Of a stretch of DNA of 64,000 nt, positions 7,189 through 45,827 are shown piece by piece (position 1 is the first letter of the stretch; the number at the start of each line of letters is the position of its first letter). The stretch is from the NCBI GenBank assembly GCA_030065235.1, contig JASJDC010000002.1:1-64000 (forward strand). The letters run 5' to 3'. This DNA comes from Alphaproteobacteria bacterium. GTDB taxonomy: Bacteria > Pseudomonadota > Alphaproteobacteria > UBA8366 > Aestuariispiraceae. A program made the position numbers and the translations under genes. The notes under the pieces are model-generated. The model did no database searches, had not been told where the DNA came from, and saw nothing but the letters and a program-made list of their open reading frames with translations.

Positions 7189-9210
7189 TTAGCGGCGCGC
7201 TTTCAGTAGGCGTTTCGCCATCGTCACGGCCGCGTCGGCCGTGATCCCAAAATGCGTGAACAGCGCGCTTGCCGGCCCCGACGCGCCGAAACCGTCCATG
7301 CCGATAAAGCCGCCATCCGATCCGATCCACCGGTCCCAGCCCTGCCGGACGCCCGCCTCGATCGCGATGCGCACGGGCGCTGATCCTTTCGCAACGCCTT
7401 TGCCAGGGCCGTTCAGCACCTTAGCCTGATAGGCCGGCGATTGCCGGTCGAAGGCATCCAGAGACGGCGCGGAAACCACGGCCGTCCCGATCCCGGCCTG
7501 TTCCAGAACGACGCGGGCGGCTGCGGCCAGTTCCACCTCCGACCCGCTGGCCAGGAGCGTGACCTGACGCGCTGACGCTTGCGCTTCCTGCAGGATATAG
7601 GCGCCGCGCGCGGACAGGTTCGCTGCGCTGTGTTTCAGCCGTTGCGGCGCCAAGCCCTGGCGCGTCAGCGACAAGACCGTCGGGCCGGACTCATTCTCCA
7701 GCGCCGCCTGCCAGGCTTCCGCCGTCTCGACCAGATCGCAGGGTCGATAGACTGTCATGTTCGGGATCGCGCGCAGGCTGGCCAGATGTTCGACCGGCTG
7801 GTGGGTCGGCCCGTCCTCGCCCAAGCCGATCGAGTCGTGGGTCATGACATAGATGACCCGCAAGCCCATCAACGCGGACAAGCGCATCGACGGCCGGCAA
7901 TAATCGGTAAACACCAAAAACGTGCCGCCAAAGGGAATGAACCCGCCATGTAGGGCGATCCCGTTCATCGCCGCCGCCATGCCATGCTCGCGCACGCCGT
8001 AATGGATATAGCGGCCTGCGAAAGCGCCGGGCCCGACAATGTCCGAGATCCCGGCCTTGGTGTTGTTCGACCCGGTCAGGTCCGCCGACCCGCCCAGCAA
8101 CGCCGGAACCGCGCCGTTAAGAACCTCGATCGTCTTTTGCGAAGCGACTCGTGTCGCGACGGTCGGCGCGTCTTTGGCCGCCTGTTTCTTGAATGCGATC
8201 AGTGCGTCATCCCAACCTTTCGGCAGCGCGCCGGAGATCGCACCCTTGAAGGCCGCGCGGTCGGCGGGCTTCAGCTTCTTCAGCCGTCCGTCCCAGGCTT
8301 TGCGCGCCGTCTCGCCGCGGGCGCCGATCTTCCGCCATGCCGCCAGGATCGGTTTGGGAACTTCGAACGGCTTGTGCGGCCAGTCGAGCGCCGTCCGCGC
8401 CCCGGCGATCTCCTCCGGCCCCAGCGGCGCGCCATGCGACGACGCCTTGCCCGCCTTGGTCGGCGCGCCATAGCCGATCGTGGTGCGGCAAGAGATTAGG
8501 GTCGGCCGATCCGATTTCTTGGCTTCCGTAATGGCTGCGTCGATTGCGTCAGGGTCGTGTCCGTCCACGCTGAACGTCCGCCAGCCGCACGCCTTGAACC
8601 GTGCGGTCTGATCGTCCGACACCGCCAGATCGGTCGGCCCGTCGATCGAGATGCCGTTATCATCGAACAGCACGATCAGTTTGTTCAATTTCAGGTGGCC
8701 GGCCAGTGAAATCGCCTCGTGGCTGACCCCCTCCATCAGACAGCCGTCGCCGGCGATCACATATGTATGATGATCGACCAACCGTTTGCCGTGGCGCTCG
8801 GCTAACATCGCTTCGGCGAGCGCCATGCCGACCGCGTTGGCCAGACCTTGGCCGAGCGGCCCTGTCGTGGTCTCGATCCCGGCGGCGTGACCGTATTCCG
8901 GGTGGCCGGCGGTTTTCGACCCGAGCTGCCGGAAATTCTTGATCTGCGCCAGGCTCATATCCTTATAGCCCGTCAGATAAAGCAGCGCGTAGAGCAGCAT
9001 CGAGCCATGGCCGGCGCTGAGCACGAACCGGTCCCGATCCGGCCAAGTCGGCTGGCTCGGATCGAATTTCAGATGTTTGGAGAACAGCACCGTCGCAACA
9101 TCGGCCATGCCCATCGGCATGCCCGGATGTCCGCTTTTGGCTTTCTGCACGGCGTCCATGGCGAGCGCCCGGATCGCGTTCGCCCGTTCGGCGTGGGAAA
9201 TCTTCATCAT
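7189..9210 (-). CDS. tkt: Transketolase
   Basis: 673 residues from the double Met [20 protein letters not shown]; an in-frame ATG further upstream (9255) would add 15 residues that do not look like the family, and neither start has a clear ribosome binding site. The thiamine diphosphate domain is shown by [23 protein letters not shown] and GDGCLMEG (G-D-G ... metal-binding motif). The pyrimidine-binding domain has [16 protein letters not shown], and [28 protein letters not shown] is the transketolase signature. The enzyme moves two-carbon ketol units in the pentose phosphate and Calvin pathways. First gene of the tkt-gap operon. Confidence 0.96.
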
Positions 9211-9556
9211 CGACTGAATCGCTTTGGGTCGGCTGATACGGATCGGAAACGGCAAGCGCGCGGCCTGTCGCCAGCGGCCGCACCATGCAGGGACGCTCTT
9301 ATTGGGTCAATACGCCATCGCCGTCGCTCTCCGCCTTTTGAGCGAGGTCCGATTGTCCGCGCCGCGCCGCGCGGCGGTGTCGAATTGGCTCGGTCCGGCG
9401 GCGCTGGATGTCGGTTGACGCTGGTTCCCGGCTGTGACTAGGGTTGCCTAATAATCGCTGGCTTTGCTGGGCGTCTCTTCACGCTTCTTGGTATGGACCG
9501 CGGTCCCTTTCTTCTCGCCGGGGCCGTCGGCGGCAGCCGCGTCAAACGAACAGACG
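9211..9556. other. Divergent intergenic region between tkt and the DUF4164/zapA operon
   Basis: 346 bases with no convincing gene. Short open frames in it (for example 9224-9418 on the plus strand) are Arg/Ala-rich and lack a ribosome binding site. It must hold the promoters of both the minus-strand tkt-gap operon and the plus-strand cell-division operon; one plus-strand promoter candidate is listed separately. No operator repeat was recognised. Confidence 0.6.
9415..9443 (+). promoter_or_regulatory. Candidate housekeeping promoter for the DUF4164-zapA operon
   Basis: TTGACG at 9415-9420 followed, after 17 bases, by CTAGGG at 9438-9443. TTGAC-N17-CTA is a common shape for alphaproteobacterial sigma-70 promoters. 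It lies about 115 bases before the chosen ATG of the downstream gene. The -10 is weak, so this is a candidate only. Confidence 0.4.
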
Positions 9557-9841
9557 ATGGTTGTGTTGGGAGCGCCCATGGCCCGCATGGACGAAGCAGT
9601 GCAGAGGCTGAATTCCGCGGTCTCCCGACTCGAAACCCTTCTGAGCCGAAAGTTGGACGCGCTTTCACGGGCCGGCGCTCTGGAGGCGGACGTATCGCGC
9701 CTCACCGAGGATAGGAACCGGATCGCGCGCGATCACGAGAAGCTGCAGGCCCGGCATCGCGACGCAGCGCTTCAGGTCGAAGAAGCGATCGAAGCCGTGG
9801 CCGGCGTCCTTCAGCGCGCCCCGCGGAACGGAGACCGATAG
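9557..9841 (+). CDS. DUF4164-like coiled-coil protein
   Basis: 94 residues from ATG 9557 (MVVLGAPMARMDEAVQRL). An earlier in-frame start at 9464 would add a Pro/Ser/Ala-rich leader and is less likely. Nearly the whole protein is a heptad-rich helix: DEAVQRLNSAVSRLETLL, then EADVSRLTEDRNRIARDHEKL, ending in an amphipathic helix. Small coiled-coil proteins of this kind lie directly upstream of zapA in many alphaproteobacteria; the function is not established, but a division role alongside ZapA is a reasonable inference. Three bases separate its TAG from the TTG start of zapA. Confidence 0.7.
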   Translation: MVVLGAPMARMDEAVQRLNSAVSRLETLLSRKLDALSRAGALEADVSRLTEDRNRIARDHEKLQARHRDAALQVEEAIEAVAGVLQRAPRNGDR

Positions 9842-9844
9842 GCT

Positions 9845-10189
9845 TTGGGACAGGTCAATCTAACCATCAACGGGCGCAATTATCAGATCGCCTGCGACGA
9901 CGGCCAGGAAGAGCATCTCGTGCGTTTGTCGGTCTATTTGGACAAGCGCGTTCGCGAATTGGCGGAAGGCATGGGTCAGATCGGCGACGCGCGTCTGTTG
10001 CTAATGGCCGGCTTGTTGGTGTCCGATGAACTGTCCGACGCGTATGCCGATGTCGAGGCTCTACGCAAGGAGCGCGATCAGTTGGCGAAACGCACGCCGC
10101 CGCCGGGTGCGGATGAGGCGGCGACCGAGGCGTTGGAAAAGCTGGCCGTGCGGCTGGAGGCTATTGCGGACCGGGTCGAGCGGGCTTAG
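9845..10189 (+). CDS. zapA: Cell division protein ZapA
   Basis: 114 residues from a TTG start. The N-terminal GQVNLTINGRNYQIACDDGQEEHL is the compact ZapA beta-hairpin/alpha head; then LVRLSVYLDKRVRELAEGM and RLLLMAGLLVSDEL, and the C-terminus is a long coiled coil (residues 60-114) used for antiparallel tetramer formation. ZapA binds and bundles FtsZ at the division ring. The zapA - 6S RNA - 5-FCL order downstream is a long-conserved arrangement and supports the call. Confidence 0.88.
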   Translation: MGQVNLTINGRNYQIACDDGQEEHLVRLSVYLDKRVRELAEGMGQIGDARLLLMAGLLVSDELSDAYADVEALRKERDQLAKRTPPPGADEAATEALEKLAVRLEAIADRVERA

Positions 10190-10372
10190 GTAAGGTCGCA
10201 GGGGAGGATTCTGCGCGGTGCGACACGCCCTCAGATGTCCCGGGGGCTATAATCACCTCTAGGGAGCTGTCCCTGGCGGGATCCAGGTCCCGTTACCACG
10301 GCGCCCACCTGCATTGCAGGCTCCAGGGGTACACTGGGCGACCGGCCGAGGCGGACCTCCCCGACCTTATTC
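10190..10372 (+). ncRNA. ssrS: 6S RNA candidate (RNA polymerase-binding regulatory RNA)
   Basis: The 216-base gap between zapA and the 5-formyltetrahydrofolate cyclo-ligase gene is the conserved locus of 6S RNA in proteobacteria. The ends can pair: AAGGTCG at 10192-10198 with CGACCTT at 10362-10368, extended by GGGAGG with CCTCCC, giving a closing stem with a small bulge around a span of about 180 bases, the normal 6S length. The interior contains further hairpin-forming blocks (for example GGGATCCAGGTCCC at 10279-10292) around a GC-poor stretch that could be the open bubble mimicking melted promoter DNA. 6S RNA binds sigma-70 holoenzyme in stationary phase. A T-containing stretch follows the closing stem. 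The call rests on locus and closing stem. Confidence 0.8.
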
Positions 10373-10408
10373 CCTCTTCAATTATCGGCCTATCCCGCGA
10401 GTTAGACT

Positions 10409-11002
10409 GTGGCCTTCTTGGAAAATGGCGGTTCGGCGGACAAGGACGTCTTTCGAGCCGAGGCGTCGCGCCGGCGCCAGCATGTCGCGGCGCAGGCTAA
10501 TGCGGGCGGGGCGCCCGTGGCGCTGGCCGAAAACTGCGCCGCCTTGTTTGATTTTGGGCGATTTCCCGTCATCGCCGGCTATTGGCCGATCGGCAGCGAG
10601 ATCGATATACGCCCGCTGTTGGCGCGCTGCGCCGACTCCGGCGCTGAACTGTGCCTGCCCACGGTCGTTGCGAAAGGCGCGCCGCTGGATTTCAGGCGTT
10701 GGACGCCGGGAGCGCCGCTGGTGAAGGACGGGTTCGGCACGTCGGCGCCGCCGTCGGACGCCGGGCCGGCGACGCCGATCCTGATTTTCGCGCCCCTCTT
10801 GGCTTTCGATCGCGATGGCTACCGGATGGGCTATGGCGGCGGCTTCTATGACCGCACCATCGCCGCCTATCGCGATCGCGGCGCGCCGCTGACGGTCGTC
10901 GGCTGCGCCTTCGCCGGCCAGGAAGCGGCGCGGGTTCCGCGCGACCAATGGGACCAGCGCCTTGACTTCGTCGCAACCGAGTCCGAGGTCATAGCTCTCT
11001 GA
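10409..11002 (+). CDS. 5-formyltetrahydrofolate cyclo-ligase
   Basis: 197 residues from a GTG start. It converts 5-formyl-THF to 5,10-methenyl-THF with ATP. Seen: a basic N-terminal helix (DVFRAEASRRRQHV), IAGYWPIGSEIDIRPLL around residues 54-70, and the family signature RMGYGGGFYDRTI near residue 140, which forms the ATP/phosphate loop. The C-terminal DQRLDFVATESEVI matches the usual P-x-E-x-W-D-x-x-L-D-x-I-x-T-(E/P) end. Its place directly after 6S RNA repeats the ssrS-ygfA arrangement, where the RNA and mRNA are processed from one transcript. Confidence 0.9.
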   Translation: MAFLENGGSADKDVFRAEASRRRQHVAAQANAGGAPVALAENCAALFDFGRFPVIAGYWPIGSEIDIRPLLARCADSGAELCLPTVVAKGAPLDFRRWTPGAPLVKDGFGTSAPPSDAGPATPILIFAPLLAFDRDGYRMGYGGGFYDRTIAAYRDRGAPLTVVGCAFAGQEAARVPRDQWDQRLDFVATESEVIAL

Positions 11003-11061
11003 ACAGCCGTCGCGCATCCCAGTTCGACGGGCGCGGCGGACAAAAATTAGGACGATCGGCC

Positions 11062-11898
11062 ATGCGGCTTCTCTTTTGCGGCGACATCGTCGGCCAACCC
11101 GGCCGGGCGGCGCTCGGGCGCCATCTTCCGCGCTTGCGGGACAGTCTGGCGCTGGATTGCGTGATCGCAAACGGCGAGAACTCGGCCCACGGGTTCGGGA
11201 TCACCGGCAAGATCTGCGAGGAGCTGTTCGACTGCGGCGTCGATATGATCACTGGCGGCAATCATTCGTTCGACAATGCGGAGATCTTCAAACACGCGGA
11301 TTCCGAGGAGAGGCTGCTGCGGCCCGACAATTTGAACGGCGCGCCGCCAGGCAAGGGCCACGGCGTCTTCGAAACGCCCACTGGCGGACGGGTGCTGGTG
11401 ATCAACATCCTCTGCCGCCTGTTCATGGACAATTACAACAATCCGTTCGAGTCCCTGGAGCGGCTGGCCCCGCAGATGGCGCCGATGGATGCGGGCTTCG
11501 ACGCGGTGGTCGTCGATGTGCATGGCGAAGCGTCGAGCGAAAAGGCGGCGATCGGCCATGTCCTGGACGGACGGGCGACGCTGGTGGTTGGCACCCATAC
11601 CCATATCCCGACCGCGGACGCCCGCATACTCGAGGGCGGCACGGCTTTCCAGACTGACGCCGGCATGTGCGGGGATTATGATTCCGTGATCGGCATGGAA
11701 AAGGAGGCGGCGGTCGGCCGGATGCTCGGCGCTTTGCCCAAGCCGCGCTTGGGGCCGGCGGAAGGCGTCGGCGCGCTCTGCGGCGTTTTCGTCGAGACCG
11801 ATCCGGCGAACGGCCTGGCCCGTCGCATCGAGCCTGTGCGCGTCGGCGGCGGTCTGCAGGAATCCTGGCCGGTCGTGAACCGAGAAGCGGCGGAATAG
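11062..11898 (+). CDS. YmdB-like metallophosphoesterase (TIGR00282 type)
   Basis: 278 residues. Metal-binding motifs of the calcineurin-like fold are in order: LLFCGDIVGQPGR at the N-terminus (D-x-V-G), IANGENSAHGFGIT (N-x-E-N), ITGGNHSFDN (G-N-H), VVDVHGEASSEK and VGTHTHIPTADA (H-x-H). The family member YmdB of Bacillus is a 2',3'-cyclic-nucleotide phosphodiesterase that affects biofilm and motility genes. In alphaproteobacteria the gene recurs beside 5-FCL and yebC as here. RNA turnover or signalling is inferred from the family; the substrate in this organism is unknown. No signal peptide, so cytoplasmic. Confidence 0.88.
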   Translation: MRLLFCGDIVGQPGRAALGRHLPRLRDSLALDCVIANGENSAHGFGITGKICEELFDCGVDMITGGNHSFDNAEIFKHADSEERLLRPDNLNGAPPGKGHGVFETPTGGRVLVINILCRLFMDNYNNPFESLERLAPQMAPMDAGFDAVVVDVHGEASSEKAAIGHVLDGRATLVVGTHTHIPTADARILEGGTAFQTDAGMCGDYDSVIGMEKEAAVGRMLGALPKPRLGPAEGVGALCGVFVETDPANGLARRIEPVRVGGGLQESWPVVNREAAE

Positions 11899-37161: not shown

Positions 37162-37935
37162 CTAGGCCGGGCCGCCCCAGGCGATGAAATAGGGATTCTC
37201 AAAGATTGGGTTCTTGGCGTAGCTCAGCGGCGCGCCGTCCGTCGTGACGACCCGGCCGCCCGCCGCCGCCAGCACGGCGTGGCCCGCCGCCGTATCCCAC
37301 TCCATCGTGCGGCCGAAGCGCGGATAGACATCCGCTTCGCCACAGGCGACCAGGCAGAATTTCAGCGAACTGCCGGCGTTCCGGGTTTCGGATACGGCGC
37401 GGCCGCCCAGCAGTTTCGCTATCTCGGCCGGATCGCCATGGCGTCGGCTGGCGACCACCGTGAGGCCTTCCTGCGGCGGCGCGCGCACCGATATCGCTTT
37501 GGGTGCGGCGCCGGCGTCGGACCGGGACGCGCCCTGGCCGACGGCGCCGGCGAACAGGCTGTCCAAAGCCGGAGCGTAGACGACGCCCAAGACCGGCGCG
37601 CCGCCCTCGATCAGGGCGATATTGACCGTGAACTCGCCATTGCGATTCAGGAACTCCTTGGTGCCGTCCAGCGGATCGACCAGCCAGAAGGGGCCATCGC
37701 CGACATCCGGGATTCGGCCTTCCGATGCGGCCTCCTCGGCCACGACGGGTACGCCTGGCGCTAAGGCGTGAAGACCCGGCGTGATAATCGCTTCCGCCGC
37801 CAGATCGGCGTCGGTGACCGGCGAATGATCCTCTTTGCGCCGCGCCTCGAAGTCCGTGGCGTAGATTTCCAGGATCGTCGACCCAGCCGCGCGGGCCAGC
37901 GCGGAGATCTCCGGCAGAAGACGGGCCGCTTGCAT
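37162..37935 (-). CDS. cysQ: 3'(2'),5'-bisphosphate nucleotidase CysQ
   Basis: 257 residues of the inositol-monophosphatase fold. Metal-binding motifs: DHSPVTDADLAAE (36-48), VAEEAA, then WLVDPLDGTKEFLNRNGEFTVNIALIE (the D-P-x-D-G-T-x-E/D signature) and YPRFGRTMEWDTAAGHAVLAAAGG near the C-terminus (W-D-x-A-A-x). It hydrolyses pAp from sulfate activation or acyl-carrier modification. It stands alone on the minus strand, 28 bases downstream of the CoxL-like gene, so it may share its transcript. Confidence 0.93.
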   Translation of the reverse strand: MQAARLLPEISALARAAGSTILEIYATDFEARRKEDHSPVTDADLAAEAIITPGLHALAPGVPVVAEEAASEGRIPDVGDGPFWLVDPLDGTKEFLNRNGEFTVNIALIEGGAPVLGVVYAPALDSLFAGAVGQGASRSDAGAAPKAISVRAPPQEGLTVVASRRHGDPAEIAKLLGGRAVSETRNAGSSLKFCLVACGEADVYPRFGRTMEWDTAAGHAVLAAAGGRVVTTDGAPLSYAKNPIFENPYFIAWGGPA

Positions 37936-37963: not shown

Positions 37964-40297
37964 TTATTCCGCCCGCCCGGCGCCGTGGATGGCGGTCCAG
38001 ATCACTTCCGGGGTCGCCGGCATGTCGATATGCTCGACGCCATAGGGCGCCAGCGCGTCGACCAGCGCGTTGATCACCGCCGGCGGCGCACCAATGGCGC
38101 CCGCTTCACCCGCGCCTTTCACGCCCATCGGATTGGAGGTGCAGGGCGCGTCTTCGTAATAGGTGAAATCGACGAAGGGCAGATTGTCGGCGCGCGGCAG
38201 GGTGTAATCCATGAACGAGCCGGACAGCAGCTGTCCGGAATCGTCGTCATAGACGGTGCGCTCCATCAGGGCTTGGCCGACCCCCTGGCCGATGCCGCCA
38301 TGCACCTGACCCGCCAGCATCATCGGGTTCACCACCTTGCCGAAATCGTCCACCACGGTGTAGCGCAGGATTTCCACGGTGCCGGTCGCCTTGTCGATCT
38401 CCAACTCGCAAATGTGGCAGCCGTTGGGGTAGGTCTTGGCCGGCCCCTTAAAGAACTCATTGGCGCCGAAGCCCGGCTGCATCCCGTCGGGTAGAGAGGA
38501 GGCGTCCATCGCCGCCTTGGCGACATCGGACAGGCTCATCGACTTGTCGGTGCCGGCGACGGAGAAGACGCCATCCTCGAAATCGATATCGCCGCTGGCC
38601 GCCTCCATGACATGAGCGGCGATTTCCTTGCCTTTGTCGACCAGGCTTTGCGAGGCGATTTTGGTCGCCGAGCCGCCTTCCGCCACCGCGCGCGAGCCGC
38701 CGGTGCCGCCGCCGGTCAGTACGACGTCGGAATCGCCCATCAGGACCTCAATATCATCCATATGAATGCCGATCCGGTCGGCGATGATCTGTTTGAACGC
38801 GGTTTCCTGGCCCTGGCCGTTATTCTGAGAGCCGATTTTCAGCGTCACCTTTCCGGTTTCCGAGACGGTCAGATCGGCGGTCTCGCCGCCGCCGGCGCCG
38901 CAGGCCTCGACATAATAGGCCAGCCCCATGCCGCGCAGCTTGCCGTCCGCCTCGCTCTCGGCGCGGCGCGCGGGAAAGCCGGCCCTGTCCGCGCGTTCGA
39001 TCGCCGCGTCCATATTGCGCTCGAACTTGCCGCTGTCATAAATCGCGCCCAGCCCGGTCGTATAGGGCATCTGGTCCGACGGGATATAGTTCTTGCGGCG
39101 CAGCTCCGCCGCGTCGACGCCCAGCTCACGCGCCGCCTTGTCGACCAGCCGTTCGACCAGGAAGGCCGCCTCGGGCCGGCCGGCGCCGCGATAGGCGTCG
39201 ACCGGGGCCGTGTTGGTGAAGACGCCGGTGACATCGACATGCAACGCCGGGGTCGTATAGACGCCCACCAACATGTCGCTGCCGGCGTGGGTCGGGATGA
39301 AGGGCGCGAAGTTCGAGAGATAGGCGCCGAGATTGGCGATGGTCTTCACCCGCAGACCGATGAATTTGTAGTCCGCGTCCAGCGCCAGCTCCGCCGTCGA
39401 AACATGATCGCGCCCGTGATCGTCGGACAGGAAGCCGTCCGCCGACCGGTCGGCGTTCCAGACCACCGGCCGCTGCAGATTCTTCGCCGCGAAGCAGACC
39501 ATCGGCTGTTCGTTGTAGAGGAAGATCTTCATGCCGAACCCGCCGCCGACATCCCGGGTGACGACGCGGAAATTCTCAGGATCGGTCTTGAAGATCGCGT
39601 CGCCCAACTGGCCCTTCAGGCCGTGCGGCCCTTGGCTGCTGGTATAGAGCACATAGCGGCCATCGACCCAGTCGCCGATCGCGTTGCGCGGCTCCATCGA
39701 GTTCGGAATCAGCCGGTTGTTGATCAGGTTCAGGGTCACCGTGTGCGCGGCCTGCGCAAAGGCGGCGTCCGTCGCTTTTTCGTCGCCCATCTCCCATTCG
39801 AAACAGACGTTGTTCCGCGCCTCTTCATGCAGCACCTGCGCGCCGTCGCTCTGCGCCGCGCCGGTTGCAATGGTCACCGGCAGCTCGTCAAAGTCGGCCT
39901 CGATCAGTTCCACCGCATCGCGGGCCTGGGCGTCGCTTTCGGCGACCACCATGGCGATGGGCTCGCCGACATGGCGGACCCGGCCTCGGGCCAGGATCGG
40001 ACGGGACGGTTTGACCAGCGGTGAGCCGTCTTTCTGTTTCAGTGGGAAATTGCACGGGATATCGCCCAGCCCCGCGGCGTCAATATCCTCGACCGTATAG
40101 ACGGCCAACACGCCCGGCGCCGATTTGGCCGCGGAAACATCAAGCGACGCAATCACGCCATGCGCGACCGGCGAGCGGAAGAATTGGGCGTGGGCCGTAT
40201 TCTCCAGCCGGATATCGTCGGTATATTCCCCGGTCCCGGTCAGGAAGCGCTGGTCTTCCACGCGTTTCAACGATTGTCCGACGCCGAACTGGCCCAT
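37964..40297 (-). CDS. CoxL-like molybdenum hydroxylase large subunit (form II), solitary
   Basis: 777 residues, the usual length of an aerobic CO-dehydrogenase/xanthine-oxidase large subunit binding molybdopterin-cytosine dinucleotide. Starts MGQFGVGQSLKRVEDQRFLTGTGEYTDDI, the CoxL-type opening. The active-site loop reads AYRGAGRPEA near residue 367, the form II signature; true CO dehydrogenase (form I) has AYxCSFR. The catalytic base is Glu near residue 732 in GAGEAGAIG. The purine/aldehyde substrate is unknown. No FAD (CoxM) or [2Fe-2S] (CoxS) subunit genes lie on either side (cysQ and FitAB flank it), so partner subunits must be elsewhere. Confidence 0.92.
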   Translation of the reverse strand: MGQFGVGQSLKRVEDQRFLTGTGEYTDDIRLENTAHAQFFRSPVAHGVIASLDVSAAKSAPGVLAVYTVEDIDAAGLGDIPCNFPLKQKDGSPLVKPSRPILARGRVRHVGEPIAMVVAESDAQARDAVELIEADFDELPVTIATGAAQSDGAQVLHEEARNNVCFEWEMGDEKATDAAFAQAAHTVTLNLINNRLIPNSMEPRNAIGDWVDGRYVLYTSSQGPHGLKGQLGDAIFKTDPENFRVVTRDVGGGFGMKIFLYNEQPMVCFAAKNLQRPVVWNADRSADGFLSDDHGRDHVSTAELALDADYKFIGLRVKTIANLGAYLSNFAPFIPTHAGSDMLVGVYTTPALHVDVTGVFTNTAPVDAYRGAGRPEAAFLVERLVDKAARELGVDAAELRRKNYIPSDQMPYTTGLGAIYDSGKFERNMDAAIERADRAGFPARRAESEADGKLRGMGLAYYVEACGAGGGETADLTVSETGKVTLKIGSQNNGQGQETAFKQIIADRIGIHMDDIEVLMGDSDVVLTGGGTGGSRAVAEGGSATKIASQSLVDKGKEIAAHVMEAASGDIDFEDGVFSVAGTDKSMSLSDVAKAAMDASSLPDGMQPGFGANEFFKGPAKTYPNGCHICELEIDKATGTVEILRYTVVDDFGKVVNPMMLAGQVHGGIGQGVGQALMERTVYDDDSGQLLSGSFMDYTLPRADNLPFVDFTYYEDAPCTSNPMGVKGAGEAGAIGAPPAVINALVDALAPYGVEHIDMPATPEVIWTAIHGAGRAE

Positions 40298-40460
40298 GCT
40301 CTGTCTCCTATGCGATGGAATTCCGGCGGCCCGGAAGCAGCGGCGCGCCCCATTCGTCTTTACTGGGTGCGATCATAAAACCCCCGCGCCCAGCGTCAAT
40401 TGGACAAAATCGGCGACTCTCGGAAGCGCGCCTCTATCGCCTGCTCCAGACCGGTTGATT

Positions 40461-40476
40461 GCAATGCTATCATTGC
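40461..40476. promoter_or_regulatory. Inverted repeat upstream of the FitAB toxin-antitoxin genes
   Basis: GCAATG CTAT CATTGC is a perfect 16-base inverted repeat 29 bases before the antitoxin ATG. Ribbon-helix-helix antitoxins with their toxin bind such palindromes to repress their own promoter. Confidence 0.55.
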
Positions 40477-40505
40477 TTAGAACAAATGGTCGACAGGAGA
40501 TCGCC

Positions 40506-40748
40506 ATGGCCAGCATTACGATCCGGAATCTTGACGAGAATCTAAAGCGGCGTCTGCGTGTGCAGGCGGCCGAGCATGGTCGTTCGATGGAGGAAGAGGT
40601 TCGCGAAATCCTGCGGCAGACTGTTGGTCAGTCGCCCAGGCGGTCTAATCTCGCACAATCAATTCGGGCGCGGGTCGCGGGGCTCGGCGGCGCGGAGATC
40701 GCTGTCCCGCCACGTCAATCCATGCGTGAGCCGCCGGATTTCGAGTGA
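40506..40748 (+). CDS. FitA-like ribbon-helix-helix antitoxin
   Basis: 80 residues from ATG with AGGAGA upstream. The N-terminus MASITIRNLDENLKRRLRVQAAEHGRSMEEEVREILRQ is a ribbon-helix-helix DNA-binding domain of the FitA/plasmid-stability type. The C-terminal 35 residues (including PPRQSMREPPDFE) are the extended region that enters and blocks the toxin active site. Its TGA overlaps the GTG start of the toxin gene by four bases. Confidence 0.9.
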   Translation: MASITIRNLDENLKRRLRVQAAEHGRSMEEEVREILRQTVGQSPRRSNLAQSIRARVAGLGGAEIAVPPRQSMREPPDFE

Positions 40749-41182
40749 GCCCAGCCTTGATCATTTTGGATACGAATATCGTCTCGGAACTCTTCCGGCC
40801 CGCGCCGGAACCTGCAGTCGAGGCCTGGCTCGCCGCCCAGGACGGCGGAGAGGTCTATCTAACCGCCATCAGCGAGGCCGAACTGCGATATGGGGTGGGC
40901 GCCTTGCCGCCGGGCAGACGGCGCGATGCGCTGGCGGTCGCGATCGAGTTGATCCTGCGTGAGGACTTCGCAGGCCGCGTCCTGCCTTTCGACAGCACCG
41001 CCGCGGAATCCTACGCCCTGATCGCGGCCGAGCGACGCGCGGCCGGCCGGCCGATCAGCCAGTTCGATTGCCAGATCGCCGCTATCAGCCGCGCACATGG
41101 GGCGGCCGTCGCCACGCGCAACAGTAAGGACTTCCAGGGTTGTGGGATCGAGGTTATCGATCCGTGGGTGCGCCGGGCCTGA
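40745..41182 (+). CDS. FitB/VapC-type PIN-domain toxin ribonuclease
   Basis: 145 residues from GTG 40745. PIN nuclease acids: Asp in LIILDTNIVSELFRP, Glu in AISEAELRYGVGALP, Asp in FDSTAAESYALIAAERR, and Asp in ISQFDCQIAAISRAHGAAVATRNSKDF, which also has the family ending T-R-N-x-x-D-F. Such toxins cut tRNA or rRNA when freed from antitoxin. The gene is coupled to the antitoxin. All four acids are present, so it looks active. Confidence 0.92.
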   Translation: MSPALIILDTNIVSELFRPAPEPAVEAWLAAQDGGEVYLTAISEAELRYGVGALPPGRRRDALAVAIELILREDFAGRVLPFDSTAAESYALIAAERRAAGRPISQFDCQIAAISRAHGAAVATRNSKDFQGCGIEVIDPWVRRA

Positions 41183-41223
41183 GCGCTCTTCCAGCGACTA
41201 ACTTGTTCAGGCCTGCGACTGAC

Positions 41224-42663
41224 TCATTGAATACCCTGCGCTGGCGTTTTTGCGACTGTGAAGCGCCATGCTTGCATTGCGTCGGACCAGTGGGTTGCAT
41301 CCAGCCCGGCCTTGCGTTTCAGGCGGGCGAGGAAGGTCGCGGGGTCGGGCATTTGCTTCCAGACTTGCGGCAGGAAAACGGCGCGCCGGTCGCCATCGCT
41401 CAGCATCAACCCATCGACGCCGGGGCGGAGCGCGGAAAGCACCGCCCGCTCCGAGGCGGCTGGGATCGGCGTCATCGGGCTGAGCAGGCTGAGAGAGATT
41501 TCCAGCCCTTGCGCCGCTTCCGCCTCGCTCAGCTTCGGGAAGCGCGGATCGCGGAAGGCGGCCCGAAAAGCGTTCTCAGCGATGTCCGCCGCCAGGGGGC
41601 GGCTGGCGACGACGCTGCCGACACAGCCGCGCAGACGGCCCTGATGCGTGAGCGTGACGAAACTCGCCCGCTTCAGGCTCAGGTCCTTGTCCAGACTGTC
41701 AATATCGATAGGCGGCGGACGGTCATGCTGGAAACCGTAGCGGATCGCCCCGGCGGCGAGCCGCTGCAAGGTCTCGCCATGACGGGCCAGGATCATACGG
41801 TCGGGGTCGTCTTCCATGTCAGGGTGATCGGTCGCGCCCGCCGGCCAGAACGCCCAGGCGCCATAGCCGACGACCCGATCTTTGTCGCCCGCTGTGTCGC
41901 CGGAATTCAACAACGCAAGGCGCTGCGGCGTGAGGCCCCGACGGAAGGCGCAGTCCAGCAATCCGGCGATGGGCGTGCGGCCGCAGGCCCGCTCCGGCGT
42001 CAGCGCGGTGCCGTCGAGCGCTTCGATCCGCGCGGCAGTCTCGTTGTCGATGGCGCGCGCCGCCTGGTAAGGCAGATAGTGACTCAGGTCCGAACTGATC
42101 AGGATCACCGTCTCGTCGCCGCCCCAGACAGTATCCAAAACGGCCGCGGTTTCAGCCGCGCTGGCTTGTCCGACCGCCAGCGGCAGCACCATGAAATCCG
42201 GGATCAGCCGTTGTAGGAAGGGCAGATGCACTTCCAGCGCATGTTCCTGCGCATGGGCCGCATCGTGGATCGCGACCAGCGGGTTCGCTTGCAGCGCCTC
42301 TAAGCCCGCCCTGTCGATCGGAATCGCGCCCAGCGGCGTGACCCATTGATCGGCGCCGGTCGCGCCGAAGCCCCGTATTGGGACGCGATGCGTCGGCCCT
42401 AGCAAGACGACGCGCCGGATCGTCTCGCGAATCGGCGACCAGGCCAGATAGGCCTGCGCAGCGGCCAGACCGGAATAGATATAGCCCGCGTGCGGCGCGA
42501 TGACGGCCTTCGGCGCCGTGCTCAGCGCTTGCGGCGGCGCGCTTCCTGTCGCCAGTCTATCGGTTGACGCTTGCTTGAACAGCGCGTCGATCATCGCGCC
42601 TAGTTGCGCCTTGTCTCTCGGATAGAAGGTCCCGGCGACGGCGGCCGGTCTGATGATCGTCAT
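41224..42663 (-). CDS. Memo-AMMECR1 fusion (AmmeMemoRadiSam proteins B and A in one chain)
   Basis: 479 residues from ATG 42663, preceded by AAAGGAGG; the longer open frame to 43080 is antisense to the radical SAM gene. Residues about 3-275 are a Memo domain, a fold of extradiol dioxygenase/LigB type: MTIIRPAAVAGTFYP, APHAGYIYSGLAAAQAYL, VVLLGPTHRVPIRGFG and ISSDLSHYLPYQAARAIDNETAARIEALDG, with His/Asp positions for a metal site. Residues 290-475 are an AMMECR1 domain with the hallmark LRGCVGSVVASRPLAADIAENAFRAAFRDPRF. The cellular role of the three-part system is not known to me. Divergent from its radical SAM partner. Confidence 0.93.
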   Translation of the reverse strand: MTIIRPAAVAGTFYPRDKAQLGAMIDALFKQASTDRLATGSAPPQALSTAPKAVIAPHAGYIYSGLAAAQAYLAWSPIRETIRRVVLLGPTHRVPIRGFGATGADQWVTPLGAIPIDRAGLEALQANPLVAIHDAAHAQEHALEVHLPFLQRLIPDFMVLPLAVGQASAAETAAVLDTVWGGDETVILISSDLSHYLPYQAARAIDNETAARIEALDGTALTPERACGRTPIAGLLDCAFRRGLTPQRLALLNSGDTAGDKDRVVGYGAWAFWPAGATDHPDMEDDPDRMILARHGETLQRLAAGAIRYGFQHDRPPPIDIDSLDKDLSLKRASFVTLTHQGRLRGCVGSVVASRPLAADIAENAFRAAFRDPRFPKLSEAEAAQGLEISLSLLSPMTPIPAASERAVLSALRPGVDGLMLSDGDRRAVFLPQVWKQMPDPATFLARLKRKAGLDATHWSDAMQAWRFTVAKTPAQGIQ

Positions 42664-42766
42664 GATGCGCCCCTCCTTTTCTTGGCGCGGATGCGGCGGC
42701 GGGCCAGACAAATACCTATATATTATGTGTGTATTGTAGCCTGGGAATTTGAGTCGGAATAGGGCG
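42664..42766. promoter_or_regulatory. Shared divergent promoter region of the AmmeMemoRadiSam genes
   Basis: A 103-base gap between the two start codons. It has a conspicuous AT-rich core (CCTATATATTATGTGTG, 42715-42731) flanked by AATAC (42711-42715) and GTATT (42731-42735), an inverted repeat that could be an operator or back-to-back -10 boxes. The fusion gene has a strong AAAGGAGG; the radical SAM gene has only weak GGGAA or TAGGG. Confidence 0.45.
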
Positions 42767-43894
42767 ATGGCGGCGGTGGCGGAAGGCGATGTGATTGACG
42801 GTGTCCCGGGGCGATACTGGACCGCTTTGGAGGATGGGCGCGTGCGTTGCGACCTGTGCCCGCGGGAATGCACGCTGCGGGACAGGCAACGGGGCCTCTG
42901 TTTCGTGCGCGCGGCCAAAGATGGCGCGATCGTCCTGACCACGTATGGCCGGTCGAGCGGCTTCTGCATTGATCCGATCGAGAAAAAGCCGCTGAACCAT
43001 TTCCTCCCGGGGACGCCGGTCCTCTCCTTCGGCACGGCGGGCTGCAATCTGACCTGTAAGTTCTGCCAGAATTGGGACATTTCGAAATCCCGGCAAATGG
43101 ACCGGTTGATGGATCGCGCCCCGCCGGAGGGGCTGGCCCGCGCGGCGCTAGAGACCGGGTGCCGATCGGTCGCCTATACCTATAACGACCCGGTCATCTT
43201 CCTGGAATATGCGGTCGATGTCGCCGCAGCCTGCCGGGCCGTCGGCGTCAAGAATGTCGCCGTAACGGCGGGCTATATCAGCCCCGGCGCGCGCGTGGAA
43301 TTCTTCGGCGCGATGGACGCGGTGAATCTGGACCTGAAAGCCTTCACCGATCAGTTCTATTATAAGTTATGCAGCGCGCATCTCGATCCGGTGTTGGAGA
43401 CGGCCCGCTATATCAAGCACGAAACGCCGGCCTGGCTGGAACTGACGACGCTGCTGATTCCCGGCGAGAATGACGGGGCGGCGGAGATCGAGGCGTTGAG
43501 CGCCTGGGTGCTGGAGAATCTGGGGCCCGATACGCCGCTGCATTTCAGCGCCTTTCATCCAGACCATCGGATGCTCGACAAGGCCAATACGCCGCCCGAG
43601 ACCCTGCTGCGCGCCGCCTCGATCGCGCGACGCGCGGGCCTGCATTATGTCTATACCGGCAATATCCATCATGAGCCGACGGGCTCGACCTATTGCCCTG
43701 GCTGCGGCGCGAAGGCGATCGGCCGCGATTGGTACGAGATCACGCATTGGGCGATGAGCGGCGGACATAACACGATGGCTCGCTGCGAGGCCTGCGGCCA
43801 TGTCATCGCCGGCGTCTTTGACGCGAAGCCCGGGGATTGGGGGCGGAAGAGGCGGCCGATCAGGATCGACGCGGGGCGCGCAGCCGCTCTATAG
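42767..43894 (+). CDS. amrS: AmmeMemoRadiSam system radical SAM enzyme
   Basis: 375 residues from ATG 42767; a TTG at 42749 is possible and would add six residues. The [4Fe-4S]-SAM motif is CNLTCKFCQNWDISKSR with Cys93, 97 and 100. Upstream are four more Cys (28, 31, 35, 45 in CDLCPRECTLRDRQRGLC), and the C-terminus has CPGCG plus CEACG, a zinc-ribbon-like pair. These features and GRSSGFCIDPIEKKPLNHFLPGTPVLSFGTAGCN are diagnostic of the AmmeMemoRadiSam subfamily, once annotated as pyruvate formate-lyase activase. No glycyl-radical enzyme is encoded nearby, which argues against an activase role. Confidence 0.93.
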   Translation: MAAVAEGDVIDGVPGRYWTALEDGRVRCDLCPRECTLRDRQRGLCFVRAAKDGAIVLTTYGRSSGFCIDPIEKKPLNHFLPGTPVLSFGTAGCNLTCKFCQNWDISKSRQMDRLMDRAPPEGLARAALETGCRSVAYTYNDPVIFLEYAVDVAAACRAVGVKNVAVTAGYISPGARVEFFGAMDAVNLDLKAFTDQFYYKLCSAHLDPVLETARYIKHETPAWLELTTLLIPGENDGAAEIEALSAWVLENLGPDTPLHFSAFHPDHRMLDKANTPPETLLRAASIARRAGLHYVYTGNIHHEPTGSTYCPGCGAKAIGRDWYEITHWAMSGGHNTMARCEACGHVIAGVFDAKPGDWGRKRRPIRIDAGRAAAL

Positions 43895-43932
43895 CGGGCA
43901 TCCGCGCGGTCTATGAGCCGGCCCGGCCTGTG

Positions 43933-44310
43933 TCAGCCATGCTTGCGGATATGCGCCGGCAGGATCTTGCGCCAATTCGGATGCGGCGCTTCGTAATCGA
44001 CCGCCATGTCTTTTTCGCCGACCCGGATGACGCGCCCGGCCGCCTGGACAAAAGTCTTTTCGCCATTCAGCGAGACCACGAAGCGAAAGGCGACGCCTTG
44101 TCCAGGGACGACCCAATCGGGCGCCGTCTTCGTGAGAAAGCCGCAGACGGAGATGTCGGCCAGACCATATTCAAGACCGTCGAGCAGAACCGTGATCGTA
44201 TCGGTCTTTAGACGCGGGAAGCGCCGGCCCATCGCCGCGCCCTCGAAATTACCGCCTTCATAGGTCAGGTCCGTATTGGCGCTGGGCGCCGCCGACGACC
44301 GTTGAAACAT
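43933..44310 (-). CDS. PilZ-like domain protein
   Basis: 125 residues. The middle has RRFPRLKTDTITVLLDGLEYGLADISVCGFLTKTAPDW: the R-x-x-x-R-like loop and D-x-S-x-x-G strand of PilZ domains that bind c-di-GMP. The first loop is RRFPRLK rather than canonical RxxxR with clear spacing, so binding is not certain. The N-terminal 28 residues are polar and unstructured, the C-terminus has VQAAGRVIRVGEKDMAVDYEAPHPNWRKIL. No transmembrane segment. It is monocistronic, convergent with the radical SAM gene. Confidence 0.72.
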   Translation of the reverse strand: MFQRSSAAPSANTDLTYEGGNFEGAAMGRRFPRLKTDTITVLLDGLEYGLADISVCGFLTKTAPDWVVPGQGVAFRFVVSLNGEKTFVQAAGRVIRVGEKDMAVDYEAPHPNWRKILPAHIRKHG

Positions 44311-44584: not shown

Positions 44585-45436
44585 TCAGGGGTGCGACCGC
44601 GCGCGCCGCCAGGTCTCCTGGAGGCGGGCGTCCAACAGCGTGAGGCGTTTCAGCGCGTCAGGCGCCAAATCGGAATGTGCTGGTATATCAGCGCCATAGA
44701 ACCCGTATTGATCGTGACCGCGCACAAGCAGCGCCGTGTCGCTCGGAGCCGCGATTTGTCTCAAGCCAGGGCTGATATACTGAACGTTCAAACCGATTCG
44801 ACGGTCGTTCGCGTGGTTCGGCGAAGACGCGTGCAGCGCCCAGCCATGGTGAAAGCTCGCTTCGCCGGGCGTCAGCGGGCAGGAAACGGCGAGCGATTCG
44901 TCCACCGCCGCGACCTGTTGGCCCCGGGAGAGGACATTGTCAGGGTCGTGCGTGTCGTCATGGGTCAACTGACCGTCCCGGTGCGAGCCGGGGATCATCC
45001 GCATACAGCCGCTGACGCTGTCCGTCGGCGATAGGGCGAGCCACATCGACACCTGCCGGTCGCCGTCGAAGCCCCAATAGGTCAGGTCATGATGCCAACT
45101 GACGAAATTGGCCGTGTTCGGCTCCTTGATGATGTAGCTGACATTATAGATCAGGATGTCCGGTCCGATCAGGTTTTCGACAATGTGGAGCGCCGTCGGG
45201 TGCGACGCCAACTCCCAAGGCGAGGTCAGGACGGTGTGGATCTTCGCGAGGTAATGCAACGATCGGCCCATCGCCGCTTCCGCCTGTTCCAGCCGCGCAC
45301 GGTGGTCGCGCGCCGCGGCCTCGGAGACGATCCGGACGGGTGAGAGGAACCCGTCCGCCGCGAACCGGGCGGCCGGAGATCCGGTCGTGAGCGCGGGGTC
45401 GACATTGGGCGCGGGTGAAGGATGGATTTGGGGCAT
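44585..45436 (-). CDS. Phytanoyl-CoA dioxygenase (PhyH)-family protein
   Basis: 283 residues from ATG 45436, preceded by AGGAGGGGAG; an ORF extension to 45517 is rejected. Fe(II)/2-oxoglutarate oxygenase features: SWHHDLTYWGFDGDRQVSMWLALSPT (H-x-D iron ligands, near residues 135-137), SGCMRMIPGSHRDGQLTHDD, and the distal His plus Arg in FHHGWALHASSPNHANDRRIGLNVQYI. Members hydroxylate lipids or small natural products and amino acids (EctD is a relative); the substrate here cannot be assigned. It stands alone on the minus strand. Confidence 0.9.
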   Translation of the reverse strand: MPQIHPSPAPNVDPALTTGSPAARFAADGFLSPVRIVSEAAARDHRARLEQAEAAMGRSLHYLAKIHTVLTSPWELASHPTALHIVENLIGPDILIYNVSYIIKEPNTANFVSWHHDLTYWGFDGDRQVSMWLALSPTDSVSGCMRMIPGSHRDGQLTHDDTHDPDNVLSRGQQVAAVDESLAVSCPLTPGEASFHHGWALHASSPNHANDRRIGLNVQYISPGLRQIAAPSDTALLVRGHDQYGFYGADIPAHSDLAPDALKRLTLLDARLQETWRRARSHP

Positions 45437-45827
45437 GGCGGCTCCCCTCCTGTTCGAGCGCAAAGGCGCGCCACGCCAGGCTCTCGCCGCGCCTGCGCGG
45501 CGCCAAGAGAGAAGCATTCGCCCTTGGGATCATCGGTTTCGCTGAATGGCGGCTGGCGACAAAAAGCCGCCCGGGCCGTTGCGGCGGCGCCGGGCGTTTC
45601 AGACCCGGTCTGTATCGCCCTGGGAGCAGGGGCGGCGGCGTGTCACTTTGCAGGCCGCGGACCGGGGCAGTCGCACAAATCGGCCAGAGCGGGCTGCGGA
45701 GGTTAGGGACGCAGCCCGGGCCGGACGCCGAACGGTCGCGGCGCGCCCAACATACGCGCCTCGCCAACGCACGCCGCCGCCATCTGACGAAACGATCCCG
45801 AAGGACCGGGCGGCGAAACCCGACGCC
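45437..45827 (-). terminator. Gap between nrdB and the dioxygenase gene, with terminator candidate at 45560-45597
   Basis: 391 bases without a convincing gene; open frames here are Arg/Pro/Gly-rich shadows. On the minus strand CGCCCGG (45590-45597 side), a GC-rich loop of about 15 bases and CCGGGCG are followed by GCTTTTTG, a plausible terminator for nrdAB about 230 bases after the nrdB stop. The dioxygenase promoter must lie between this hairpin and 45436. No riboswitch was recognised. Confidence 0.4.

Follow-up and report, generated by a model that had tools for sequence, protein, structure and literature searches.

A Memo-AMMECR1 fusion gene divergent from a radical SAM gene in an alphaproteobacterium, and an apparently exported form of the system in relatives

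Do Memo, AMMECR1 and a radical S-adenosylmethionine (SAM) enzyme form a single chemical machine, and in which compartment of the cell does it work? The question is raised by a locus at positions 41224-43894 of the DNA analysed here, a stretch of 64,000 nucleotides from an alphaproteobacterium of the Aestuariispiraceae (assembly GCA_030065235.1, contig JASJDC010000002.1, positions 1 to 64,000 of the forward strand; hereafter the window), where a gene that joins a Memo and an AMMECR1 domain in one chain lies back to back with the gene of a radical SAM enzyme. Memo and AMMECR1 are linked to human disease and conserved from archaea through to humans (human MEMO1 is in the Protein Data Bank), and the window adds a further case of their fusion, with relatives that can be cultivated, among them Thalassospira (L043). 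The reading that we favour, and hold with moderate confidence, is that the three proteins are a cytosolic trio acting as one unit on one substrate. We prefer such a joint machine because Memo and AMMECR1 co-occur perfectly, because they have been fused repeatedly, and because relatives of the window appear to hold an exported form of the system.

The three proteins of the window

All three parts score above the curated NCBIfam cut-offs for the 'AmmeMemoRadiSam system' (radical SAM protein, TIGR04337, 602.2 bits against a cut-off of 220; Memo part, TIGR04336, 241.3 against 26; AMMECR1 part, TIGR04335, 182.5 against 99), so that the trio is, by its sequences, an ordinary member of an already known and named system. 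The original prediction had described a complete trio whose reaction it did not know; its completeness is borne out and no reaction turned up in the literature searched, mostly titles and some passages, but the system itself already carries a name. Burroughs et al. 2019 (JBC), whose abstract is said to link Memo to nucleotide-base and isoprenoid modification, may be a prior description of part of what we report. That study is cited for 'Memo-Ammecr1 systems' in an eLife paper (PMC7159879), and an archaeal survey places AMMECR1 among uncharacterised priority targets, citing structure 1VAJ (PMC6393860).

The fusion gene (AmmeMemoSam_B plus AmmeMemoSam_A) occupies 41224-42663 on the minus strand and encodes 479 amino acids and a stop. 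We place its start at the ATG at 42663, just 5′ of which lies an AGGAGG ribosome-binding site; the listed open reading frame (ORF) is longer (41224-43080). Profile search, alignment and Foldseek all recognise the Memo domain (41848-42651) and the AMMECR1 domain (41251-41772), both on the minus strand. On the plus strand, the radical SAM gene (AmmeMemoSam_rS) runs to 43894 from a TTG at 42749, which gives 381 amino acids, or from an ATG at 42768. The fusion in one chain and the divergent orientation proposed earlier thus both hold, with 104 bp between the two ATGs (42664-42767). The short AT-rich promoter placed in this gap fared less well: a 30-bp core near 42706 (within an AT-rich core near 42706-42740) is 77% AT, but the gap as a whole is only 47% AT, against 36% locally, and when 41100-44000 was scanned for the sigma-70 consensus, the one promoter type covered, the gap gave no match. 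A promoter in the gap is therefore not supported by the sigma-70 consensus scan. The genes of the trio are adjacent, and each part is present in a single copy in the window genome, which is 98% complete.

The AlphaFold model of the fusion (14 sequences) has a mean predicted local distance difference test score (pLDDT) of 89.3 and a predicted template modelling score (pTM) of 0.63; the linker, residues 278-284, is modelled poorly. When the model was searched with Foldseek, the Memo part matched human MEMO1 in its iron-bound form (7kq8, E 2.3e-20) and the AMMECR1 part matched the archaeal structure 1vaj (E 6.6e-16), while far weaker matches were obtained with TK2203 (3.9e-7) and with aminophenol dioxygenases (from 1.6e-6). 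AMMECR1 had been called an unknown fold, which is wrong, since 1vaj, 1zq7 and 1wsc are solved structures. In human MEMO1, according to passages of its structural description, iron is bound by H49, H81 and C244, and no dioxygenase activity was detected on the authors' trial substrates (PMC11081632). H58 and H92 of the window protein align with the two MEMO1 histidines and the MEMO1 cysteine (CG..P) falls on C227 in a profile alignment, which shows, at the level of aligned residues, an intact MEMO1-type His/His/Cys metal site. Of the site residues, H58 and H92 are invariant across 135 distinct Memo domains and C227 is found in 133; of two further residues, D192 is kept in all 135 and H195 in 134. 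A LigB-type extradiol dioxygenase site (His, His, Glu) was considered and set aside, the third position being Cys in the window and in those 133 domains. The AMMECR1 domain carries the LRGC[IV]G motif, with C347, as well as D372-P373-R374-F375; in 130 such domains, C347 is kept in 128 and both D372 and R374 in all.

The radical SAM protein contains eleven cysteines in three clusters, in line with the nine or more first counted, and all eleven are invariant in a 24-row alignment (A3). They comprise an N-terminal cluster (C34-C37-C41-C51, 42848-42901), the radical SAM motif (C99-x3-C103-x2-C106, 43043-43066) and a C-terminal set that we call zinc-ribbon-like by eye (C316/C319/C346/C349, 43694-43795). 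Both the CX3CX2C motif and the fold place the protein in the radical SAM superfamily. Its model (pLDDT 84.0, pTM 0.87; residues 1-15 below 50) has the pyruvate formate-lyase activating enzyme as its closest solved fold.

One could ask whether the protein is simply an activase of a glycyl radical enzyme whose neighbourhood is incidental, an identity that we find very improbable. It does match activase families, though all of them below their curated cut-offs and by a wide margin (PFLA, 51.6 against 231.75 bits). In a survey of 190 genomes of the window's class, the radical SAM protein exceeded its curated cut-off in 30 and glycyl radical domains were found in 10, and a single genome, G116, had both; the other 29 genomes with the protein are devoid of such domains. 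Nor is there a match to the glycyl radical domain (PF01228) in the 98% complete window genome, which extends to the whole genome the original remark that no glycyl-radical enzyme is encoded nearby. The pattern expected of a true activase, a gene adjoining that of a glycyl radical protein, is found instead in 7 of the 10 genomes whose only radical SAM match lies below the cut-off, and those seven proteins look like ordinary activases. The genome scan for glycyl radical domains largely refutes this identity, which we reject.

Co-occurrence, fusion and gene order

Memo and AMMECR1 were each found in 33 of the 190 class genomes, and the two sets of genomes are identical; 28 of the 33 also possess the radical SAM protein. 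Memo and AMMECR1 are thus inherited together, which supports joint action of the two, if not necessarily on one intermediate as first suggested, and archaeal control genomes support the presence of both in archaea.

Several observations weigh against a joint machine of the three parts, for which the analysis found no substrate. Five of the 190 genomes (G047, G069, G073, G133 and G172) keep Memo and AMMECR1 without a radical SAM protein over the cut-off, and in three of them (G047, G073 and G172) the fusion has a hydrophobic N-terminus. Conversely, G087 (AMMECR1 at 63 bits, below the cut-off) and G116 have the radical SAM protein without the full pair. The genes can also lie far apart, on different contigs in G082, and animals, which have both Memo and AMMECR1, are not known to have this radical SAM enzyme. 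When 20 genomes behind named loci were considered, AMMECR1 was not beside the radical SAM gene in 18 of them on the sequence covered; 14 of these have AMMECR1 over the cut-off elsewhere and four (G200, G202, G208 and G209) do not, whereas in the remaining two (the genomes of L085 and L093) it lies near the radical SAM gene.

Paramagnetospirillum was dropped as an example of distant genes, as a broken radical SAM gene adjoins its Memo-AMMECR1 gene. This radical SAM gene (L185, about 7900-8300, minus strand) breaks off within the radical SAM motif and is followed by what looks by eye like an integrase frame; another copy is found elsewhere on the contig (L068). At L131 and L135, with no radical SAM partner over the cut-off in the genome, a Memo-AMMECR1 protein with an N-terminal membrane segment is encoded beside a serine dehydratase-like gene and another of unknown kind (both judged by eye).

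We compared 109 distinct loci, a number of them on short contigs. Memo and AMMECR1 were fused in 34 and separate in 47, while 11 loci had Memo only, one AMMECR1 only and 16 neither of them nearby. A quick tree of this enzyme, with strong support for 19 of its 106 inner branches, requires at least 14 switches between the fused and split states of the 81 loci with both parts (mean of 200 shuffles, 26) and only 3 in strand order, opposite or same, over 92 loci (shuffles, 17). In these 92 loci, all of which have Memo nearby, its gene and that of the enzyme diverge in 69, converge in 4 and share a strand in 19. The named rows nearest to the window on this tree are alphaproteobacteria, and its closest row, from the same family (L029/L111), is split. 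At the other extreme, L113 encodes all three parts in one frame of 882 amino acids (9221-11866, plus strand) in the order radical SAM, Memo, AMMECR1. Fusion is thus a common and reversible state, which supports joint action and is nothing special in the window; the idea of a special state was rejected on the 34 fused against 47 split loci and the at least 14 switches. Separability in related genomes, named at the outset as grounds for refutation, thus holds for the chain, as in the 47 of 81 split loci and in L029/L111, and fails for the genome, the two domains occurring in the same 33 of 190.

These data also bear on the possibility that the three proteins serve separate pathways and are kept together by shared regulation, for instance under redox or metal stress. 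The lability of the fusion, the loss of partners and a gene order that is mostly divergent rather than a single operon would agree with it. We nevertheless judge it quite unlikely, given the identical genome sets of Memo and AMMECR1, the repeated fusion, the triple fusion and the joint export signals described below.

A comparative search had been suggested for neighbours that always co-occur. None was near general among the 101 regions searched (80 contig loci, 20 class regions and the window, many of them short), when groups seen in at least six regions were retained. Apart from the parts of the system itself, the recurrent neighbours, named by eye except for CysQ, were sensor-kinase-like (19 regions), regulator-like (11 and 7), an ABC transporter (10) and CysQ (10), followed by an FAD-linked oxidase (8), an aminopeptidase (7) and, directly following the radical SAM gene, an alpha/beta hydrolase (6); of two further groups, of 11 and 6 regions, one is antisense to the system. 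The CysQ nucleotidase of the window (37162-37935, minus strand; 287.5 bits, cut-off 228.8) is on the Memo-AMMECR1 strand, and in all ten regions, which belong to the window's class or to named alphaproteobacteria only, CysQ is on the strand opposite to the radical SAM gene. Descent explains this neighbourhood equally well, some of the ten regions being close kin. The window also encodes a FitA-like antitoxin and PIN-domain (VapC-like) toxin pair, immediately downstream of the fusion gene and on the opposite strand (40125-41182, plus strand), and at 44585-45517 (minus strand), beside class I ribonucleotide reductase genes, a PhyH-family oxygenase that weakly resembles chlorinating and hydroxylating enzymes.

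An apparently exported form in relatives

The system of the window is taken as cytosolic because we saw no export signal on it. Some relatives differ. G002 has a second set in which the Memo-AMMECR1 protein (L138) has a signal-like N-terminus, and the radical SAM protein, on another contig (L139, 6272-7507, minus strand; an AmmeMemoSam_rS relative at 334.7 bits, cut-off 220), has its own N-terminal signal resembling those of the twin-arginine translocation (Tat) pathway; its gene adjoins that of a spermidine-synthase-like membrane protein. In L181 (G206), the genes follow one another in the order membrane protein (with Spermine_synth, FMN_bind and Fer4_5 domains), small membrane protein, radical SAM protein, small Tat-like ORF and signal-peptide-bearing Memo-AMMECR1. 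With the L181 radical SAM protein as query, 299 genomes of the phylum yielded close matches (477-522 bits) in 11. In 9 of these 11 there was another match at 1e-60 or better, which in one case was partial.

These loci define a divergent group with a short radical SAM protein, a small Tat-like ORF and a mostly signal-like Memo-AMMECR1 protein (L181, 6219-7196 and 6046-6225; L189-L199; L219-L229), for which we give counts over 12 loci (L181 and L189-L199), with export signals read by eye. All 12 enzymes lack the N-terminal strand pattern discussed below, and in each a start codon lies 4-6 residues ahead of the first Cys; some have earlier in-frame starts, that of L190 giving MEALFMTTVV before the Cys. 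Behind all 12 lies the small ORF, with its twin Arg and hydrophobic stretch, although the NCBIfam Tat model was passed by only one of three small ORFs tested (19.1 against 16.7). The N-terminus is signal-like on the adjacent Memo-AMMECR1 protein in 10 of the 12 loci and on an adjacent AMMECR1 alone in L197, while L189/L219 has neither nearby. The upstream membrane protein was recognised, at least in part, in four (L181, L190, L197 and L198). In addition, L182 has the same small ORF and signal, its enzyme being cut by the contig end. L230 belongs to the same phylum as L047, a Nitrospirae record; its enzyme is short and followed by a Tat-like ORF, and its Memo-AMMECR1 protein has a lipoprotein-like signal.

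The small ORF itself looks like a strand detached from the radical SAM enzyme. An N-terminal segment, described by a pattern written after seeing the sequences, is kept in 140 of 150 canonical enzymes, and the other ten have it by eye (e.g. RHWHALGDGRIQ). The pattern is also kept in 26 of 36 divergent enzymes; of the ten off pattern, L230 and L233 are short, L234 shows the segment by eye and the remaining seven (L174-L180) carry a different form. In the L047 phylum, most enzymes begin with MKEAMFYEKL, MREALFFERE or similar, 16 residues before the first Cys, and the small ORFs end in EADFYRPHDLAG, EADFYAPHSEAG, EANWYRRGGKSP and similar, or VALFWKRQDP in L230, the tail being degenerate in L191, L193, L196 and L198. 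The matching strand (24-26) is confidently predicted in the model of the window enzyme. This similarity is short and was judged by inspection, and the search pattern also matched many unrelated frames in the loci; the evidence is therefore the fixed place of the ORF behind the enzyme and not the pattern.

The export signals on these parts suggest joint export, which would put the parts in one compartment. We thus propose, as an explanation that may prove right or wrong with about equal probability, that these relatives hold an exported form of the system, in which the strand-less enzyme, once folded, would hitchhike on the Tat tag and work in the periplasm beside a signal-bearing Memo-AMMECR1 protein. 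Hydrogenases and formate dehydrogenases are known cases in which an untagged partner is exported by hitchhiking, according to passages of a paper (PMC10924467) in which a radical SAM gene is named only as a neighbour; no literature on periplasmic or exported radical SAM enzymes was found among the titles and passages searched. A strict joint export is at odds with the hydrophobic N-termini of Memo-AMMECR1 in G047, G073 and G172, where no radical SAM protein exceeds the cut-off. Alternatively, the small ORF may serve the enzyme as a peptide substrate and not as an export tag, with which the conservation of its PH..AG tail beyond the strand-like part would agree.

If the exported form is real, it would narrow the possible substrates, bring the radical SAM enzyme and Memo-AMMECR1 together in one compartment and open the joint action of the three parts to testing. 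It would be very surprising for a radical SAM enzyme to work outside the cytoplasm, and one would have to ask how it obtains SAM and electrons there; the upstream membrane protein of some loci could be a source of electrons or of a SAM-like compound.

A proposed joint machine and its known relatives

In the cytosolic trio that we favour, Memo and AMMECR1 would be one working unit, fused or not, usually but not always fed by the radical SAM enzyme in the same compartment. This enzyme would open or activate one substrate through a 5′-deoxyadenosyl radical, the Memo site, which by analogy with MEMO1 would bind iron, would carry out a redox step on that same substrate, and AMMECR1 would hold it or hand it over, the Cys of LRGC being the likely contact.

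Instead of a shared substrate, the radical SAM enzyme might modify Memo-AMMECR1 itself, for example at the LRGC motif, in the manner of glycyl radical activases. The fold closest to the enzyme, that of the pyruvate formate-lyase activating enzyme, would suit such a role, as would the lack of glycyl radical domains in all but one of the 30 genomes that have the enzyme, so that any protein partner would have to be something else, and co-export makes sense if the enzyme must meet a folded Memo-AMMECR1 outside. We still regard this as unlikely, since Memo and AMMECR1 are kept without the enzyme in 5 of 190 genomes and inspection by eye, with no dedicated search, revealed no glycyl-radical-like motif in the fusion.

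The joint machine can be set beside several known systems. Pyruvate formate-lyase activating enzyme (3c8f, 3cb8) has the radical SAM core in common with the window protein, which differs by its two extra Cys clusters and by the lack of a glycyl radical partner in its genome. Human MEMO1 resembles the window Memo in fold and in its His/His/Cys iron site; the two are about 24% identical, and the window Memo differs in being joined to AMMECR1. The archaeal AMMECR1 proteins PH0010, MM0484 and ST0229 (1vaj, 1zq7, 1wsc) have the same fold and LRGC motif but, unlike the window fusion, are uncharacterised proteins that stand alone. Extradiol dioxygenases such as 2-aminophenol 1,6-dioxygenase (7txy, 3vsg) are distant fold relatives of the Memo part and, according to the passages on MEMO1 (PMC11081632), have Glu as third ligand where the window Memo has Cys. 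The formate dehydrogenase region TAT target (TIGR02811) is, like the small ORF of the relatives, a short ORF with a Tat-like signal, and matched one of three small-ORF peptides tested, weakly (17.5 bits, cut-off 48.45); the small ORF, seen in relatives and not in the window, differs in its tail, which is similar to the N-terminal end of the radical SAM enzyme. Of the AmmeMemoRadiSam system (TIGR04335, TIGR04336 and TIGR04337), the window holds all three members, over cut-off and adjacent; it differs by having Memo and AMMECR1 in one chain, a state that is itself common (34 of 81 loci).

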